Origin: Loktanella sp. 3ANDIMAR09
GTDB taxonomy: Bacteria; Pseudomonadota; Alphaproteobacteria; Rhodobacterales; Rhodobacteraceae
Assembly (NCBI RefSeq): GCF_001420005.1
Contig: NZ_LJAK01000008.1
Location: forward strand, 62,001 to 126,000
Direction of reading: 5' to 3'
DNA: 64,000 bases
The notes below the pieces were generated by a model that saw only the letters and a program-made list of their open reading frames with translations, was not told the origin of the DNA and did not search any database. Numbering within the stretch: position 1 is the stretch's first letter; each line of letters opens with the position of its first letter. Positions 23,017 through 64,000 of this stretch are shown in pieces. The translations under genes and the position numbers were made by a program.

Positions 23017-24080
23017 TTCCGTCCATTGCGTTTCGCGTGATAAAGCGCGTGATCCGCGCTGGCACTATGATGGTCGAAACTCGCCTGAAGCGGAGTCCAT
23101 GAGACACCGATCGACACGGTCAGATCGAGGATCTGATCGTCAATCTCAAAGGCCGTGTCGCTGACGGCCTTTCTGCATCTGTTGGCAATGATTTCCGCTG
23201 TGCCTGCGGCCGTATCCGGCAGTAGGACTGAAAATTCGTCACCCCCAAGGCGGCTGAACAGATCCCCCTCGCGCAGGCAATCACGGATCCTTTGAACAAA
23301 TTGAACCAGGACGGCATCGCCCGCCGGATGGCCATAGGTGTCGTTGATGATTTTGAACCGGTCGATATCCATCAGCAACAAGGCACGCCCGCGGGGGGCC
23401 TGTGGCCGGCTGTTCAGGCCGTCGACGAACTCCCGAATGGCGGCACGGTTCAGAACACCTGTCAGCCCGTCCGTCTGAGAGGCCGTTTGCAGGGTTTGCA
23501 CCCGGATGATCTGTAGCCGTTCACGGGTCAGCAACAGGCCCAGGGCCAGTGTCCCGACAAACTGAACCACAAAGGAAAATGGCGCGATATTGGCCATGTA
23601 GATTTGTCGCGCCGCCTGTGGCAGCAGCAGACCAATCAGCGCGTGCATTGCGACCACGGTTGCCAGCAAGAGGGTCGCAGCGACGTTCGGGACGCCCCTG
23701 GATCGGATGAATTTCGACCACGCCAGGCCGCATGCCGCGACCGAACACATCGCGGTCAAGCCGACAGTCATGCCGTCCCCGCCAATCGCGAAACGGGTCA
23801 CACCCGCAATGACAAGCGCGATGATGCCACCCTGCACATCGAAATAGGCAAAGGCCAGCGCAACGAACACGAGCCTGGAATCAATGAGGAAACCATCCGA
23901 AATTTCGACCGGAGACGACATTGATGCGACCGCCGCGAGCCCCAGCACCAACCCCATGATCGGGCGGACAGCGACACCGTCCAGTTTGTGGCGGGCGATC
24001 AGGCCATAAACATAGGCCATAGAGAGCGCGATCCCGACCGGCTGAAACAGCGTCATGAAAATCCGGACAAGTTCGGTCAT
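22953..24080 (-). CDS. Membrane diguanylate cyclase (5TM-LYT sensor plus GGDEF)
   Basis: This 375-residue protein joins a multi-helix membrane sensor region (residues 1-195, resembling the 5TMR-LYT type) to a GGDEF domain. The cyclase domain begins DGLTGVLNR, carries metal-binding DIDRFK, and has an intact active site RLGGDEF. It should make c-di-GMP at the inner membrane in response to an unknown signal. No allosteric RxxD is visible just before GGDEF (the residues are CLREGDLFSRL). It is divergent from zapE and overlaps the hydrolase gene at its 3' end. Confidence 0.94.
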   Translation of the reverse strand: MTELVRIFMTLFQPVGIALSMAYVYGLIARHKLDGVAVRPIMGLVLGLAAVASMSSPVEISDGFLIDSRLVFVALAFAYFDVQGGIIALVIAGVTRFAIGGDGMTVGLTAMCSVAACGLAWSKFIRSRGVPNVAATLLLATVVAMHALIGLLLPQAARQIYMANIAPFSFVVQFVGTLALGLLLTRERLQIIRVQTLQTASQTDGLTGVLNRAAIREFVDGLNSRPQAPRGRALLLMDIDRFKIINDTYGHPAGDAVLVQFVQRIRDCLREGDLFSRLGGDEFSVLLPDTAAGTAEIIANRCRKAVSDTAFEIDDQILDLTVSIGVSWTPLQASFDHHSASADHALYHAKRNGRNYTCVGSPLLVPAAVSLDATA

Positions 24081-53386: not shown

Positions 53387-53767
53387 ATGCGTTCCATCTT
53401 CTGCACGATCAGCCTGAGTCTGATGGCCGCGCCGGTTTTGGCCGGACCCTACGATGGGACCTACAAACAAACCGCGAATTCCGAATGCGCGCTGGTCGGT
53501 GTGGATGGCGGCGCGGTGCGGATCGCAGAAGGAATCTTTTACGGTGTCGAGGCCGAATGCCGGATGTCCGACCCGGTCAATGTCCTCGAAATGGATGCGC
53601 TGCTCTACACGATGCAGTGCAGCGGTGAGGACCAGCAATTCACGGAACGCGCGATGGTCATGGACAAGGCCGAAGACGACGGCATCATCATGGTCTGGAA
53701 CGGCTACGCCTTTGTTTATGATCGCTGCAATCCGGATCCTTTTGCCGCCGCACCGCAGGACGAATGA
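53387..53767 (+). CDS. Small secreted Cys-containing protein
   Basis: This 126-residue protein has a signal peptide (MRSIFCTISLSLMAAPVLA, cleavage before GPYDGTY) and four mature cysteines (SECALVG, AECRMSD, MQCSGED, DRCNPDP) that could form two disulfides. The family is not recognised. An AAGGAG site lies 8 bases before ATG 53387. It is divergent from the secretion genes and is the last host gene before the prophage left end, which begins about 26 bp after its stop. It appears intact. Confidence 0.8.
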   Translation: MRSIFCTISLSLMAAPVLAGPYDGTYKQTANSECALVGVDGGAVRIAEGIFYGVEAECRMSDPVNVLEMDALLYTMQCSGEDQQFTERAMVMDKAEDDGIIMVWNGYAFVYDRCNPDPFAAAPQDE

Positions 53768-53793
53768 AGGCCCCTGTTCTGGCAATCGGTATT

Positions 53794-53961
53794 TGTTGTC
53801 TCAGCTGTGGGGGACTGAGACATTTGAGACAAAGCGTCGATCAGGCTGAAGCGTCGTTGGGCCTTTGAAACCAAGGCGGATCGCTGATTGGCGATTATTT
53901 ATGGTTTGAGACACAAATGTTCGGATCGCGACGCAAGGGGACGCGACGTTTGAGACACAAA
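53794..53961 (+). repeat. Left-end transposase-binding repeat array (attL)
   Basis: Five TGAGACA motifs lie in 161 bp: one inverted at 53797-53803, a tandem pair at 53816-53822 and 53825-53831, and two in the longer form TTTGAGACACAAA at 53905-53917 and 53949-53961. From the proposed end the outer group spans positions 4-38, and the inner sites begin near +112 and +156. This is close to the L1, L2 and L3 spacing in phage Mu as I recall it. The repeats are therefore proposed as MuA-type binding sites. No gene is present in this interval. Confidence 0.7.
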
Positions 53962-53978: not shown

Positions 53979-54623
53979 TCAGACCAGGGCGCGGCCGATC
54001 CAGACGACGCGGCCGATGATCTCGAGCTGGGCGAGGTCGGGACCTTCGATGCGTTCGACGGGGTATTCTGGGTTGGACGAGATCAGGTCGATCCGGTCGC
54101 CGCGTTTCGCCAGGCGCTTGATGAACAGCGCATCGCCATAGGACACGGCATAGATGGCGTCGCGGACATCGACCTCTGACGTGTCGATCATGACCAGGTC
54201 GCCATCGCCAAGGGTCGGCACCATACTGTCGCCACGCGCATCGACGATGACCATGCGGTCCGGGTTCCGGCCGCCCAGCTTCTTGGAAAAGAAGTCAGGC
54301 GCAAAGGGGATCGGCGTCAACTCCTCGGCACGGTCCGAAATTGAACCACTACCAGCCGAAAGCTGAACGTCGTAGCGGCGAACTAATTTGGAATGAAGTG
54401 TGCCTTTGCCAGGAGCAGGGCCATGTCGTGGTGTACCAGTGACTAGCCAATCGACTGAGACGCCAGACACCTGCGCCATTTTGGCGAGTACCGAAGCTTT
54501 CGGTTCACTTACTCCGGCCAGATAGTTTCCCAATGTGCGCCGAGGAATGCCGATAGCTTTTGCATAGACCTCACCAGAATTGGCTCGATCCACGCAAATT
54601 TTGATCCTGTCCGCGAGGTTCAT
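53979..54623 (-). CDS. Prophage repressor, XRE helix-turn-helix with S24 peptidase
   Basis: This 214-residue protein is the likely lysogeny repressor. It has an N-terminal helix-turn-helix (YAKAIGIPRRTLGNYLAG, residues 20-37) and a C-terminal S24 LexA/CI-type domain with Ser133 (RGDSMVPTL) and Lys169 (ALFIKR). A potential self-cleavage site, Ala90-Gly91 (LSAGSGS), lies between them. That suggests SOS-induced cleavage rather than the ClpX route of the Mu repressor. It is transcribed leftward toward the end repeats and divergent from ner, across an operator region with inverted repeats. Confidence 0.9.
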   Translation of the reverse strand: MNLADRIKICVDRANSGEVYAKAIGIPRRTLGNYLAGVSEPKASVLAKMAQVSGVSVDWLVTGTPRHGPAPGKGTLHSKLVRRYDVQLSAGSGSISDRAEELTPIPFAPDFFSKKLGGRNPDRMVIVDARGDSMVPTLGDGDLVMIDTSEVDVRDAIYAVSYGDALFIKRLAKRGDRIDLISSNPEYPVERIEGPDLAQLEIIGRVVWIGRALV

Positions 54624-54639
54624 CTTAAATTCCTAACTT

Positions 54640-54771
54640 GAACGCCAGCGTTCAGCTTTTCGCGCTGCGTTCAGGTTCGAAATAAAGGTAGTTACATCAG
54701 TAACTTAACAAAATACAGGCAGAAAAATGCCTGAATTTGCCCCTATTGAGCCAAAAACAGCTTGATAAGCT
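54640..54771. promoter_or_regulatory. Repressor/early operator region
   Basis: The 221-bp gap between repressor and ner is AT-richer than its neighbours and has four inverted repeats. GAACGC-CA-GCGTTC is at 54640-54653, with a further half site GCGTTC at 54667-54672. GTTAC-ATCA-GTAAC is at 54691-54704, CAGGC-N8-GCCTG at 54716-54733, and AGCTT-GAT-AAGCT at 54759-54771. The first, next to the repressor start, is the best candidate repressor operator; the last is nearest ner and may bind Ner. Divergent promoters must lie here. Confidence 0.6.
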
Positions 54772-54844
54772 AGCCAAAAAGCGCCAACTTCCTCTCATGT
54801 CGTCGTCAAATGTGCGCCCGCCAGCGCCCACCGAAAGGACCAAC

Positions 54845-55150
54845 ATGAGCAAGGCAAAACACCCGTGGCACCCGGCTGACGTCCTGTGCGCACTCACGAA
54901 ACAAGGCCTGAGCTATGCAGAGGTTGCGCGCCGCCATGACCTGAACAGGTCAGCCGTCGCGAACGCCGCATCGCGTCCGAACTATTCCGCAGAAACCGCC
55001 ATCGCATCAGAGCTAGGCGTTCCAGCGCACCAGATTTGGCCGGACCGTTACGATGATCGGGGCCTCCCCCTGCACAAAATGGTCCGACGCCGTCTTAACG
55101 CACACATGGCCGCGCAGTCACGTCTAATTCGCGACGAGGTGCAGGCATGA
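54845..55150 (+). CDS. ner: Ner-family DNA-binding protein
   Basis: This 101-residue protein matches the Mu Ner/Nlp family: KHPWHPADVLCALTKQGLSY, helix-turn-helix EVARRHDLNRSAVANA and the signature LGVPAHQIWPDRYD. In Mu, Ner represses early and repressor promoters to control the lytic switch. ATG 54845 follows AAGGACCAAC; an in-frame extension upstream is not conserved. It opens the rightward early operon. The last 30 residues (MVRRRLNAHMAAQSRLIRD) extend beyond Mu Ner. Confidence 0.92.
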   Translation: MSKAKHPWHPADVLCALTKQGLSYAEVARRHDLNRSAVANAASRPNYSAETAIASELGVPAHQIWPDRYDDRGLPLHKMVRRRLNAHMAAQSRLIRDEVQA

Positions 55151-56523: not shown

Positions 56524-56960
56524 TGGCCTATTTCACCCCATCCCAGGGCTGGGCCATGCCTGCCCGCCACCGGCTGCCTGACGGCGTCGCGACAGCACCT
56601 ACATTGACAGACCGCATCAGCCTGGTCGTGGCCTGGGCGATAAAGGCCAGCGACCTGGGTCGGGGTGAAATTGCGCGCCGTATGTCGGATTACCTGGGTG
56701 CCCCGGTCAGTGTGCATATGCTGAACGGCTATGCCGCCCAGACGCGGACCGATCACCGGATCACGCTGGAACGGTTCATGGCGCTGATCGCAGCGGTCGA
56801 AATGCCTGAACTGGTCGATTTCGTCGCGCGTCCCGCGGGATGTGCCGTGGTGCCTGACGCCTATGCGGATCTGATCGAATTCGACCTGCTGGAGGCAGAG
56901 TTGCGTGCCCTGCAGGCCGAAAAGGCCGATCGCATCCATCAGCAAAGGCGCTCAGCATGA
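56523..56960 (+). CDS. Prophage early protein, possible DNA-binding (cassette gene 6)
   Basis: This 145-residue protein is largely helical. Its middle part (RGEIARRMSDYLGAPVSVHMLNGYAAQTR) resembles a helix-turn-helix with a long recognition region, and its end is a coiled-coil-like helix (LLEAELRALQAEKADR). It may be a regulator or a partner of the transposase. Its stop overlaps the transposase ATG (ATGA), so the two are translationally coupled. Confidence 0.72.
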   Translation: MAYFTPSQGWAMPARHRLPDGVATAPTLTDRISLVVAWAIKASDLGRGEIARRMSDYLGAPVSVHMLNGYAAQTRTDHRITLERFMALIAAVEMPELVDFVARPAGCAVVPDAYADLIEFDLLEAELRALQAEKADRIHQQRRSA

Positions 56961-59122
56961 AGGAATGGATGACAGCCGCCGAGATTGCGGCGATGGGCCT
57001 TGAAGGCCTACCTAAATCTACCCAGAAAATCACAGCGCGCGCCCGGCAGGACGAATGGCGCAAGCTGGGGCCCAATCTAGCCCGCAAGCGCGCTGGCCGC
57101 GGTGGCGGCTGGGAATACCACGTCACCTGTCTGCCACCTGCGGCCCTGGCCGACTGGGAACTGCGCCGCGAACGCGCCCTCACCCCTGCGGCCCCCAAGC
57201 CACCGGCTCTGAAGCGCGAGGCCGATCCGGTCACCACCCTGTCGGGCCGTCGTCGCCGGGTCATGGAAGCCCGCGCCCAGGTCCTGATGGAGGTTCAGCG
57301 CCGCGTCATCACCGAAGGCAAGAGCCAACGCCAGGCGATCCTGTCGTTGATCGCGGATTTCAAAAGCGATACCGCCCTGCCTGAACACCAACGCGTGCTG
57401 AGCGCCCCCCTGTTCGACGCGTGCGGCGATGCGAACGACAAGGGGCGTCGCAGTCTAAGCAGGCCCGCGGTCTATCGTTGGATTAAGGAGCAATGCGAGG
57501 GCGGCGTTGCGGCGCTCGCACCACAAAATACGCGTCCTGCCAGCGCCGACGATGCCTGGCCCTGGCTGCCGCGTCTGCTGCGGTTCTATTGCCGCCCGCA
57601 GAAGCCCGCATTGAAGAAAGCCCACGCCGACCTGCTGAAGTCGGGTCTCGTCAATGAGCCGGTCTCCTATGCCCAATGCAAGCGGGCTATTGCATCGCTA
57701 CAAGGGACCGAGCGGTATCTTGACGCCCATCGCGGGCGTGAAGGGGCGAATGCGCTGAAGGCCCGTATGGCGTTCAAGCGCCGCGATACATCGATGCTGG
57801 ACCCGACCGCTGTCTACATCGCCGACGGCAAGCTGTTCGACGCCGAGATCGCGCATCCCGTCCACGGCCAGCCGTTCAAGCCAGAGATCACGTCGATCCT
57901 GGACGTGGCCACGCGTCGCTGCGTGGGCTGGAGCCTGTCGCTGGCCGAAAACACCGATGCGGTTGCCGATGCCGTTCGCATGGCGGTCACCGATTGCGGG
58001 ATCCCGGCGATTTTCTACTCCGACAATGGTCCGGGTTATCGCAACGCCCGCATGGATGGGCCTGTGCACGGCCTCTGCGCGCGCCTCGGCACCACGACAA
58101 GCCATTCGCTGCCGTACAACAGCCAGGCGCGCGGGATCATCGAGCGGTTCAACGGCTCAGTCTGGAACCCGTTTGCGCAGGAGTTCGACACCTACCTCGG
58201 CGCGCCCATGGATCGCGAGGCGGCCAACGTCATGCACCGCGCAACGCGGCGCGACATTCGCGAAGTCGGGACCAGTCACCGTGTCTGCGGTTGGGAGCTG
58301 TTCATGGAACGGGCCGCTGCTGTTGTCGCGGCCTACAACGATGCACCGCACGATGCCCTGCGGGTCCGCGATCGCGCGACCGGCCGCTGGATCGCGCGCA
58401 GTCCGAACCAGGCATGGGCCGAGGCCGAGGCCGCAGGGTTTGCACCTTTTGTGCCAACCGCAGTCGAGATCGATGATCTGTTCCGGCCTCATATGGAGCG
58501 GACCGCGCGCCGTGGCGAGGTTCAGTTCCTGAGTAACATCTATTTCCACCCGGATTTGCAGCCCTACGACGGCCTCAAGGTTCTGGTGGGGTACGACATT
58601 CATGATGCGCAGCGTGTCTGGGTGCGTTCGCTCGGCGACGATGGCGAGATGGGCGGTCTGATCTGTGTGGCTGAATATGCCGGGAACAGCACTCATTACA
58701 TGCCGCGTCCGATGGTCGAAGCCGCCCAGGAGCGCCGCCTGAAGGGTCAGCGTCAGCGGCTTGCGGTCAAGATGCAGGCTGTCGAGGACGCCGCGCGTGC
58801 GCCGCTATTCATCGAACATGCCGCGCCCGAAGAGACATTGCCCGAGGTGTTGCCGCCCGCTGCCGAGCCGGTTCGTGTTCGGCCCCGCGTTGTCGAGCGC
58901 ACGCCCGATCCGGACGACGAGGTTATTTCGGAAGATCTGCTGCTGTCAGCTGATCTGCTGAGCGGTCGGATGGAGATGACCGAAGGCCGATACGAATTGA
59001 TGGTCCGTTTCCTGCGCTTTGGCGTGGGCGACAACCTCATGAAGCACGCAGGGTACGACCCCGAGGCCCTGCGCGCGAAAATGCGAACTTTCAAAGAGCA
59101 GAGTGGAGTACCCCCCCCATGA
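56957..59122 (+). CDS. Mu-type DDE transposase (MuA)
   Basis: This 721-residue transposase cuts and joins phage ends during lysogeny and replicative transposition. It has N-terminal Mu DNA-binding domains (WMTAAEIAAMGLEGLP; RARQDEW) and an rve/RNase H core with catalytic Asp290 (YIADGKLFD), Asp356 (YSDNGPGYRN) and Glu396 (RGIIERFNG). A C-terminal Mu-transposase domain and a Pro/Glu-rich tail follow. The length is slightly above Mu A (663). The sequence ends in a C8 tract at 59111-59118 just before the TGA, and the MuB ATG overlaps the stop. Confidence 0.96.
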   Translation: MKEWMTAAEIAAMGLEGLPKSTQKITARARQDEWRKLGPNLARKRAGRGGGWEYHVTCLPPAALADWELRRERALTPAAPKPPALKREADPVTTLSGRRRRVMEARAQVLMEVQRRVITEGKSQRQAILSLIADFKSDTALPEHQRVLSAPLFDACGDANDKGRRSLSRPAVYRWIKEQCEGGVAALAPQNTRPASADDAWPWLPRLLRFYCRPQKPALKKAHADLLKSGLVNEPVSYAQCKRAIASLQGTERYLDAHRGREGANALKARMAFKRRDTSMLDPTAVYIADGKLFDAEIAHPVHGQPFKPEITSILDVATRRCVGWSLSLAENTDAVADAVRMAVTDCGIPAIFYSDNGPGYRNARMDGPVHGLCARLGTTTSHSLPYNSQARGIIERFNGSVWNPFAQEFDTYLGAPMDREAANVMHRATRRDIREVGTSHRVCGWELFMERAAAVVAAYNDAPHDALRVRDRATGRWIARSPNQAWAEAEAAGFAPFVPTAVEIDDLFRPHMERTARRGEVQFLSNIYFHPDLQPYDGLKVLVGYDIHDAQRVWVRSLGDDGEMGGLICVAEYAGNSTHYMPRPMVEAAQERRLKGQRQRLAVKMQAVEDAARAPLFIEHAAPEETLPEVLPPAAEPVRVRPRVVERTPDPDDEVISEDLLLSADLLSGRMEMTEGRYELMVRFLRFGVGDNLMKHAGYDPEALRAKMRTFKEQSGVPPP

Positions 59123-59892
59123 CAAATAGCTTCGTCCAGACGAAGAACTGGCAAAGGTTTCAGGATGGCCTGCGCGGGTTGAATACGCGCGGTGCAGAGG
59201 AATGCCGCCTCGTCGTGATCGACGGCAAGCCCGGCCTCGGCAAGACCACGATCCTGAGCCGCTGGGCCGTCCAAGAACGGTGCGTGTATCTGCGCGCCAA
59301 GTCCGAATGGACGCCTTACTGGCTGCTGGGCGAAATCCTGACCGAATGCCAGGAGGCACTGCCGCACGGGCAGGAAAAGCGGATGAACGCGGTTCTGGCA
59401 ACGCTGAGTCGCCAGGCACAATCTGCTGACATGGCCAAGCGGCAATTCGCCGTGGTCATCGACGAAGCCGATCACGTCGCCAAGAAGGCGTCGATGGTCG
59501 AGCTGATCCGCGACATCACTGATCTGGCGGCTGTTCCGGTCATCCTGGTCGGCATGGGCACGATCCGTGACCAGCTCAAGCGGTTTCCGCAGGTCAGCAG
59601 CCGGGTCTCTCGCTATGTTGGGTTCCGGCCTGCGGATGTGGACGATGTGCGTCGCTTCCTGAACGAACGTTGCCGGGTCAAGATTGCCGATGATCTCGTG
59701 TACTTCGTTCACAAGGCGACTGGTGGTTACAATCGCGAGCTGATGGAGGCGATCGTATCGCTGGACGAAGTTGCGATGCGCAACCCGCCTGCCGATCCGG
59801 AGATAGGCCTGACACTGGCCGAGATGGATGGTCGCCAGCTGATCAACGACCGCGCGACCAGCCAGCCGATCATCGTCCGGGGTGCAGTTTGA
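59119..59892 (+). CDS. MuB-type AAA ATPase (transposition target selector)
   Basis: MuB binds DNA in an ATP-dependent filament, captures target DNA and stimulates the transposase. The 257-residue protein has Walker A DGKPGLGKTT at residues 35-44, Walker B VVIDEADH at 112-119 and a sensor segment LVGMGTIRD. It is shorter than Mu B (312) and lacks an obvious N-terminal helix-turn-helix. The ATG overlaps the transposase stop; the preceding C8 tract could allow a frame change between them. Confidence 0.94.
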   Translation: MTNSFVQTKNWQRFQDGLRGLNTRGAEECRLVVIDGKPGLGKTTILSRWAVQERCVYLRAKSEWTPYWLLGEILTECQEALPHGQEKRMNAVLATLSRQAQSADMAKRQFAVVIDEADHVAKKASMVELIRDITDLAAVPVILVGMGTIRDQLKRFPQVSSRVSRYVGFRPADVDDVRRFLNERCRVKIADDLVYFVHKATGGYNRELMEAIVSLDEVAMRNPPADPEIGLTLAEMDGRQLINDRATSQPIIVRGAV

Positions 59893-62679: not shown

Positions 62680-62704
62680 CCGGCCTCACCCCAAGGAGAC
62701 GACA

Positions 62705-62989
62705 ATGAACAAACTGACGAAAACGAACCTGATCGATCAAATCGCAGAACAGACCGGTGACACCAAGGTCGATATCGAGCGCCACATCGGCGCATTCCTC
62801 GATACGATCTGGTCAGCGATGGTCGCAGGCGACGAGGTTACACTGCGCGGTTTCGGCACCTTCAAGGTGCGCGACAGCAAGGCCCGGACGGGGCGCAATC
62901 CGCGCACTGGTGAGCCCGTCGAGATCGCGGCCAAACGGACGGCCGCCTTCAAGCCGTCCAGCGCGCTTTCGGAGAAGATGAACGGCTGA
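62705..62989 (+). CDS. Phage-encoded HU-family DNA-binding protein
   Basis: This 94-residue HU/IHF-family protein (MNKLTKTNLIDQIAEQTG ... GRNPRTGEPVEIAAKRTAAF) bends DNA; the beta-arm motif GRNPRTGEPVEI is complete with the intercalating Pro. In phage Mu the host HU is needed to assemble the transpososome at the left end, so a phage copy may make the element self-sufficient or species-independent. An AAGGAG site precedes the ATG. It is 25 bp after the HD gene and followed by a perfect hairpin. Confidence 0.93.
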   Translation: MNKLTKTNLIDQIAEQTGDTKVDIERHIGAFLDTIWSAMVAGDEVTLRGFGTFKVRDSKARTGRNPRTGEPVEIAAKRTAAFKPSSALSEKMNG

Positions 62990-63045: not shown

Positions 63046-63816
63046 ATGTACCAGATCGATGTGCAATCAGACGGAACCTATGCGGTGTTCCAGATGCAGC
63101 CCGTTCGCATCGCACAATTTCAAAGTGCAGACGATGCGACAGCATTTGTGGCGCTCAAGGCGGGGCAAACGCCTGCGCCCACTGCGCAAAAGACCGTCCA
63201 GCCTGCCAGAGCGAAGCCTGAAACGGCTCCGATCGTTTCTGATGTGCCCGCGGTCAAGAAAGCACAGCCCGAACGGAGGTTGCGGCTCGAAGACATCGTA
63301 CCGGCAGAGCAGCAGCAGCCGACCCCGCAGCGTGATACACCGGGAGAGCTTCCGTCTGTTAAATCGTTTACCGCCGCACAGCGCGATACGTTCCTGATAC
63401 GCAGAATTGCAGGTGAGGCCCCCAGCGATATCGCCGAGAGCATGGGGTTCAGCCGACGCGGTGTCGCGGGTTTCCTGAGCGGGGCAGAGGTCAAAGCGCG
63501 CCGTTTCGAACTCGAGGCGCTGGACTTGCCTGCGCGCGCACGCCTCCTGGGCGACATTGCGCCAGCTGTTGCCTCACAATCAGCCGAACCGAGCACTGCG
63601 CTGGTTCCTGCGTCAAAACCCGATGTGCTGCCGATCCAGGCGGCGCTGCGCGAGATGCGCGACAGAGAGCTACCTGCTGATGTGCTTGGCCGCGGGCCCG
63701 TGCGCATGGGCATACCACCATCGCAGGCGGAACCGGCCGTTTGCACGGATTGCGGAAAAAACTTCATGAATGCATCGACGGATTTTGATCCCAAATGCGT
63801 TCGGTGCCGGGACTGA
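63046..63816 (+). CDS. Prophage protein with helix-turn-helix-like region and zinc ribbon
   Basis: This 256-residue protein has three parts. A small beta N-terminus (YQIDVQSDGTYAVFQMQPV) leads into a Pro/Ala/Lys-rich linker (residues 40-110), then a helix-turn-helix-like stretch (RRIAGEAPSDIAESMGFSRR near 125-145). At the end is a zinc-ribbon pair (CTDCGKNF ... KCVRCRD). An AAGGAG site precedes ATG 63046. The zinc ribbon resembles DksA/TraR-like tails but lacks the rest of that fold. Function is unknown; transcription control is a reasonable guess. Confidence 0.78.
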   Translation: MYQIDVQSDGTYAVFQMQPVRIAQFQSADDATAFVALKAGQTPAPTAQKTVQPARAKPETAPIVSDVPAVKKAQPERRLRLEDIVPAEQQQPTPQRDTPGELPSVKSFTAAQRDTFLIRRIAGEAPSDIAESMGFSRRGVAGFLSGAEVKARRFELEALDLPARARLLGDIAPAVASQSAEPSTALVPASKPDVLPIQAALREMRDRELPADVLGRGPVRMGIPPSQAEPAVCTDCGKNFMNASTDFDPKCVRCRD

Positions 63817-63820
63817 GCGC

Positions 63821-64000
63821 ATGGCACGGAACCCCCTTCAAGCCCAAATTCACATCGGACGTCAGCAATTGGCGATGGACGATGACGACTACCGCGATCT
63901 GCTGGAGCGCGTCACCGGTCAGCGCAGCTCGGCCCGTTTGAATGACGATCAGCGTCGGGCGGTTATCAATGAGCTCAAGCGCCTGGGCTTTGCCGCGCGC
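63821..64000 (+). CDS. gemA: GemA/gp16-family protein (partial)
   Basis: The first 60 residues (MARNPLQAQIHIGRQQLAMD ... DYRDLLERVTGQRSS ... LNELKRLGF-like end) match the Mu gp16/GemA family (DUF1018), which in Mu alters host gene expression and DNA topology. The gene runs past the right edge. In Mu, gemA closes the early region just before the middle regulator Mor, so mor and the late genes should lie just outside. Confidence 0.85.
   Translation, partial: MARNPLQAQIHIGRQQLAMDDDDYRDLLERVTGQRSSARLNDDQRRAVINELKRLGFAAR

Follow-up and report, generated by a model that had tools for sequence, protein, structure and literature searches.

The stretch of DNA analysed here (the window, 64 kb long) comes from contig C8 in the draft genome (3.67 Mb) of Loktanella sp. 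3ANDIMAR09. Towards its end a repressor gene diverges from a gene for an HTH_35 regulator, which we take to be Ner-like, and these are followed by genes for a transposase, an ATPase, an HU-like protein and GemA (Table 1). The domains of the transposase all score above the family cut-offs, and the match to phrog_310 has an E value of 5e-149. Terminase, baseplate and tail genes lie beyond the early genes.

Next to the repressor gene, five copies of TGAGACA are crowded together, one on the minus and four on the plus strand, as a preliminary description of this DNA had reported; the extended copies that it listed (TTTGAGACACAAA) were likewise found, at 53905-53917 and 53949-53961. The word itself is not enriched in the window, since the 6 copies observed, the sixth of which is at 23100, far from the cluster, are close to the 5.3 obtained from shuffles. 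The Poisson chance of five copies falling within 161 bp is ∼3e-12, and that of four same-strand copies within 142 bp is ∼5e-11. The inverted copy is host DNA, and the other four are part of a prophage.

Table 1. Left end of the prophage and its early genes, in window coordinates.
Feature	Position	Strand	Basis or remark
Inverted TGAGACA, outside the phage, host DNA	53797..53803	-	Aligned congener G1035 reads TACCTCA
Left TCAGC of the 5-bp target duplication	53801..53805	.	Same five bases after right tip C7:175395
Left tip of prophage, TGTGGGGGAC	53806..53815	+	Same tip in C7 remnant
Outer TGAGACA of tandem pair (+11-17), probably fortuitous	53816..53822	+	Found in 2 of 11 left ends: window prophage and remnant
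Proposed transposase site L1 (+17-26, ATTTGAGACA)	53822..53831	+	Equal tip distance at right end and in relatives
Proposed site L2 (+99-108)	53904..53913	+	Matching place in C7 remnant
Proposed site L3 (+143-152)	53948..53957	+	Matching place in C7 remnant
Repressor, HTH_3 and Peptidase_S24	53979..54623	-	Domain families
Ner-like regulator, HTH_35	54845..55150	+	Domain family
MuA-type transposase, HTH_Tnp_Mu_1, rve, Mu-transpos_C; phrog_310	56957..59122	+	Families
MuB/TniB-type ATPase, AAA_22, TniB; phrog_296	59119..59892	+	Adjoins transposase
HU-like DNA-binding protein	62690..62989	+	Open frame from 62660
GemA (Mu gp16-like), cut by window end	63770..64000	+	Families

Ends of the prophage and host junctions

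A search of the genome with TTTGAGACA led to three further ends on C7, one left and two right, and to one right end on C14. The query occurs at 20 places, of which 11 are the ends described here (C7, C8 and C14) or lie in the left region of a prophage on C2; no tip was found in the sequence at the places on C1, C3, C4, C2:18188 and C2:41066, while those on C12, C17 and C23 were left out of this reading. The right tip that belongs to the window prophage, at C7:175395, begins TGTAACGGGCCG, and the bases outside it, in the phage direction, are TCAGC. The 5-bp host duplication that the preliminary description had predicted thus exists. Both tips start with TG (TGTGGG and TGTAAC). When the two host flanks are joined, the resulting 161 bp match an uninterrupted site in the congener G1035 over the full length (91%), with TACCTCA in the congener where the host flank has TGTCTCA. 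Because the joined flanks match this phage-free site, the left boundary is set at 53806 and the inverted TGAGACA copy is assigned to the host. The terminus had previously been placed at 53794, with the inverted copy present there counted as part of the phage end. That position is practically untenable, as 53746-53805 runs on as host sequence into the phage-free site of the congener, and the right junction already contradicts it: GTATT, the duplication expected from a start at 53794, is absent after the right tip. A duplication that sets the boundary elsewhere is also what the preliminary description had named as refuting its proposal.

A caveat to reading the region as attL is that the left and right halves of the prophage are on different contigs. 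The assembly is interrupted within the phage, and C8 and C7 are joined here on the evidence of the TCAGC duplication and the phage-free site. Across the two contigs the prophage measures at least 37,418 bp, the expected size of a Mu-like genome being ∼36-39 kb. Both full prophages of this genome have, in their right part and near the contig end, genes that appear similar by eye (C7:178949-179398 and C14:85771-86271), and this likeness may explain why the two are broken there.

Candidate transposase sites

The 10-mer NTTTGAGACA stands at +17-26 of each tip, in mutually inverted orientation, so that the repeat does recur, inverted, at the right end, as anticipated. Two further copies of the 10-mer are found at the left end (L2 and L3). 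The TGAGACA words within L1, L2 and L3 (53825-53831, 53907-53913 and 53951-53957, all on the plus strand) stand at +20, +102 and +146 counted from the left tip.

Site layout was compared in the window prophage, a remnant on C7, the C2/C14 prophage, the prophages of genomes G042, G046, G248 and G023 (contig C11), and phages RR1-B, RcapMu and DMS3, together with the left end of viral contig L056, giving 11 left and 10 right ends; copies were scored within 2 mismatches. In nine of the ten phages with both ends, the window prophage included, the left 10-mer reappears at +17-26 of the right end; at this threshold it was not found there in DMS3. A second right-end copy at +39, 22 bp further in, is present in 7/10 right ends and was not found within 2 mismatches in the window prophage, G248 or DMS3; the window prophage has a degenerate match at that place. 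The letters of the site vary by phage (TTTGAGAC, CTTCCGGAC, CTTCTGGACA, GAACGGGACA and CATTTGCAGT) and its place is constant. The recognition code can thus be tested in the RcapMu-type group, where the terminal site has a constant position (+17-26) and letters that vary from one phage to another. Second and third left sites are more variable, occurring at +99 and +143 in the window prophage and the remnant, +30 and +139 in C2, +100 in G046, +99 in G248 and +142 in G023:C11; none was found at such places, within 2 mismatches, in G042, RR1-B, RcapMu or DMS3. The positions of both L2 and L3 are identical only in the remnant. When clusters of TTTGAGAC/TGAGACA were sought in the loci of 21 relatives, one was found, in viral contig L056. 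A k-mer repeat scan near the relatives' transposases returned mostly GC-rich noise and was outperformed by a joint search for tip, site and 5-bp duplication.

The tandem arrangement of the two outermost phage copies had been singled out as unusual; it does differ from the relatives, but the pair is not conserved among them. The outer copy (+11-17) is found in 2/11 left ends, those of the window prophage and the remnant. C2 and L056, which also use the same motif, have GCTG or ACTG at +9-12 followed by different bases, and ends with other motifs have no RCTG at +9-12. As C2 and L056 share RCTG and then diverge, the outer word can be read as AGACA that follows RCTG by chance, and on these comparisons it is probably fortuitous. 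A functional role for the outer copy, either as an additional site or as one half of an extended L1 to which two subunits bind in tandem, would fit its exact match to the word, its distance of 9 bp from the next TGAGACA and its retention in the remnant. Such a role is nevertheless unlikely, given that the copy is missing from the other nine left ends and from the right ends read, and that ACTG/GCTG at +9-12 occurs only in C2 and L056, where it continues differently.

The repeats lie just past the 3′ end of the repressor gene, which raises the alternative that they are operators of this neighbouring repressor and not transposase sites. This explanation is very improbable: the same 10-mer also stands at a set spacing from the right tip, ∼37 kb from the repressor gene, and there is no TGAGACA in 54624-54844, where the repressor and the Ner-like gene diverge. 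The preferred interpretation, that the region is the attL of a Mu-like, RcapMu/D3112-group prophage whose ends function as proposed below, is given a probability of about 0.9. The preliminary description had identified the region as a left end belonging to a transposable prophage of the Mu type, for which the right tip, the duplication and the transposase genes have now been found; attL was rightly spotted and wrongly bounded. Like other Mu-like phages, this prophage has a Mu-type DDE transposase with an adjacent ATPase, TG tips bordered by a duplication, early and structural genes, and, near both ends, mutually inverted copies of a site at which binding is predicted. Mu-like phages also replicate by transposition and package host DNA at the ends. 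In the proposed mechanism the MuA-type transposase would bind the 10-mers at L1, L2 and L3 on the left and at R1 and the degenerate R2 on the right, assignments made from sequence. The bound transposase would pair the two phage ends, nick at the terminal TG and, assisted by the MuB-type ATPase, join the ends to target DNA with a 5-bp stagger, which would leave the 5-bp host duplication. The inverted TGAGACA outside the phage belongs to the host DNA that served as target.

Insertions in the same genome and in relatives

Two further insertions are present in the genome. A remnant of 5,208 bp (C7:170176-175383), with GATGG on both sides, shares its first 28 left-end bases with the window prophage, has sites at +17, +99 and +143, and retains a head protease, a major head protein and a late-activator-like gene. 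A second full prophage extends from C2:34825 to C14:84745, with the duplication CGAAC and the tips TGTGGGGGGCTGG and TGTGGCGCGCCG. Exact ends and duplications are thus fixed for three related prophages in one genome, which provides a ready footprinting substrate for the transposase. The window prophage and the remnant were inserted 6 bp apart (G000 C7:175383-175395), beside a tRNA-Ser(GCT) gene at C7:170036-170125 (locus L015). A second, 38-bp copy of part of this tRNA gene (97%) is present at C7:169904-169941 (L015 9904-9941), and the open frame at C7:168306-168854 (L015 8306-8854), near the partial copy, resembles a serine recombinase by eye. Perhaps these mark another mobile element that uses the same tRNA gene.

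In a tree of 38 transposase sequences the window prophage falls within an 11-row clade (100/99) together with RcapMu, RR1-B, C2, G023:C11, G042, G046, G078, G121:C14, G248 and viral contig L056. A search in the genus of G042 gave only G042 itself. Relatives were drawn from a family search of 394 genomes, in which up to 2 candidates were scored per genome and the best 49 matches, down to an E value of 1e-94, were used; to these were added 6 genomes from a class search, 7 matches in the genomes of named loci, and G121:C14. Both tips and an exact 5-bp duplication were set at 16 sites outside this genome, in addition to its own three insertions, the weaker calls among the 16 being the left tips of G656 and G298. 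At G023:C11 (L077 5044) and G713 (L171 6112) the flanks agree over 4 bases with the same one-base offset. The remaining relatives' sites were cut by contig ends or lacked settled tips.

In part of the related group, the right flanks (G187, G200, G053 and G386; L149, L125, L105 and L116) repeat the last 6-11 bases of the right tip, for example GTCACGCTACA, immediately outside the phage, and no 5-bp duplication was found at these flanks. Type II hammerhead ribozymes score above the Rfam gathering threshold in the Mu-like prophages of G023:C11 (L077 15221-15290) and G046 (L086 1059-1121). Rfam detected no such ribozyme in the given stretches of this genome's prophages, in which one tRNA was the only match at the gathering threshold; a literature search combining hammerhead ribozyme, Mu-like and prophage found nothing.

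Insertion beside tRNA genes

That this phage and several of its close kin stand directly beside tRNA genes was less expected, and is suggestive in view of the small numbers. Of the six clade sites resolved at both ends, four are no more than 100 bp away from a tRNA gene: the shared site of the window prophage and the remnant, counted once (tRNA-Ser(GCT), 45 bp), C2/C14 (tRNA-Phe, 35 bp), G023:C11 (tRNA-Met, 33 bp) and G042 (tRNA-Cys, 83 bp). G046 has no tRNA gene nearby, and none was found in G248, whose right flank spans only 129 bp. G078, G121:C14 and G087, for which the left flank alone is available, have no tRNA gene in it and were kept out of the count. The controls were 17 prophages of related clades in the same tree, 11 with both tips set and 6 with the right tip set and no tRNA gene in either of the flanks retrieved. 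Within 100 bp of a tRNA gene there were 0/17 control sites (Fisher p = 0.0017 against 4/6; 0.029 without this genome), and within 250 bp there were 3/17, at 113, 129 and 218 bp (p = 0.038, a value computed with 18 controls where the correct n is 17). The 3/17 figure is itself above random (p ∼1e-4), and a weaker tRNA bias may therefore be general. Outside both counted groups, G713, from a sister group, is 65 bp away from a tRNA-Ser(GCT) gene, while G656 and G650 are not near a tRNA gene and the short flanks of G465 contain none.

With 38 tRNA genes the chance for a random site is 0.28%. As the idea arose from this genome, the independent test is the other clade members, in which the figure is 2/4 (p ∼5e-5, or ∼0.003 if only intergenic DNA is open, the latter value depending on a guess that 2.1% of intergenic DNA is near tRNA genes). 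In Escherichia coli Mu has been reported to enter pre-tRNA leader and trailer DNA and to spare the mature gene (PMC7350765), and among the table rows listed for the D3112-group phage Ab30 hotspots lie 54-59 bp from the palindromic BIME motif (PMC5977238). Should the bias hold, the places at which prophages occur naturally would be linked to the behaviour of Mu at pre-tRNA DNA in vivo. Among the open-licence papers listed, judged by titles and opening parts of abstracts, no tRNA-adjacent Mu-like prophages were reported in this group. It is possible, but at present doubtful, that the RcapMu-type clade truly prefers tRNA-flanking DNA (the distance to the mature gene is 33-83 bp for the four sites, on either side), which would be read by the MuB-type ATPase, the transposase or a host factor. 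Were the preference true, a supposedly near-random transposer would be partly site-directed.

Comparison with known systems

In phage Mu, attL comprises several sites in the same direction and is matched by sites at attR. Mu and the window prophage share TG tips and a 5-bp duplication; the target duplication is 5 bp in Mu and 6 bp in B3 (PMC8705779). The Pseudomonas phages of the D3112/DMS3 group resemble the window prophage in a phrog_310-type transposase, ∼39% identical, and in the tips TGTGGGGAGG and TGTAGCGCGG. Their published L1-L3 lie at 10, 93 and 124 bp, and R1 as published has the opposite orientation to R2 and R3 (PMC4378225); a five-base shift between orientations is described for Ab30 (PMC5977238). 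They differ from the window prophage in a right-end 10-mer unlike the left one. Rhizobium phage RR1-B has a transposase of the same clade, 41% identical over 86%, the tips TGTAGGGGGG and TGTGGCGCGCCG, and right-end sites at +17 and +39, but its site letters are CTTCTGGACA and it has one left site within 2 mismatches.

The Rhodobacter phages RcapMu (NC_016165), whose transposase belongs to the same clade as that of the window prophage, and RcWaterboi (MW677528) have tips like those of the window prophage (TGTAGGGGGG and TGTAGCGCGC), the 10-mer at +17-26 of both tips, and a second right site 22 bp further in. They differ in their site letters (CTTCCGGACG compared with NTTTGAGACA in the window prophage) and have no second or third left site at +99 or +143 within 2 mismatches. 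The RcapMu record annotates attL1, attR1 and attR2 at matching places, and ends of this type have therefore already been described. The element in the window is a prophage of a known kind of phage, and its layout is closest to those of RcapMu and the D3112 group, Mu entering the comparison through its general layout alone.
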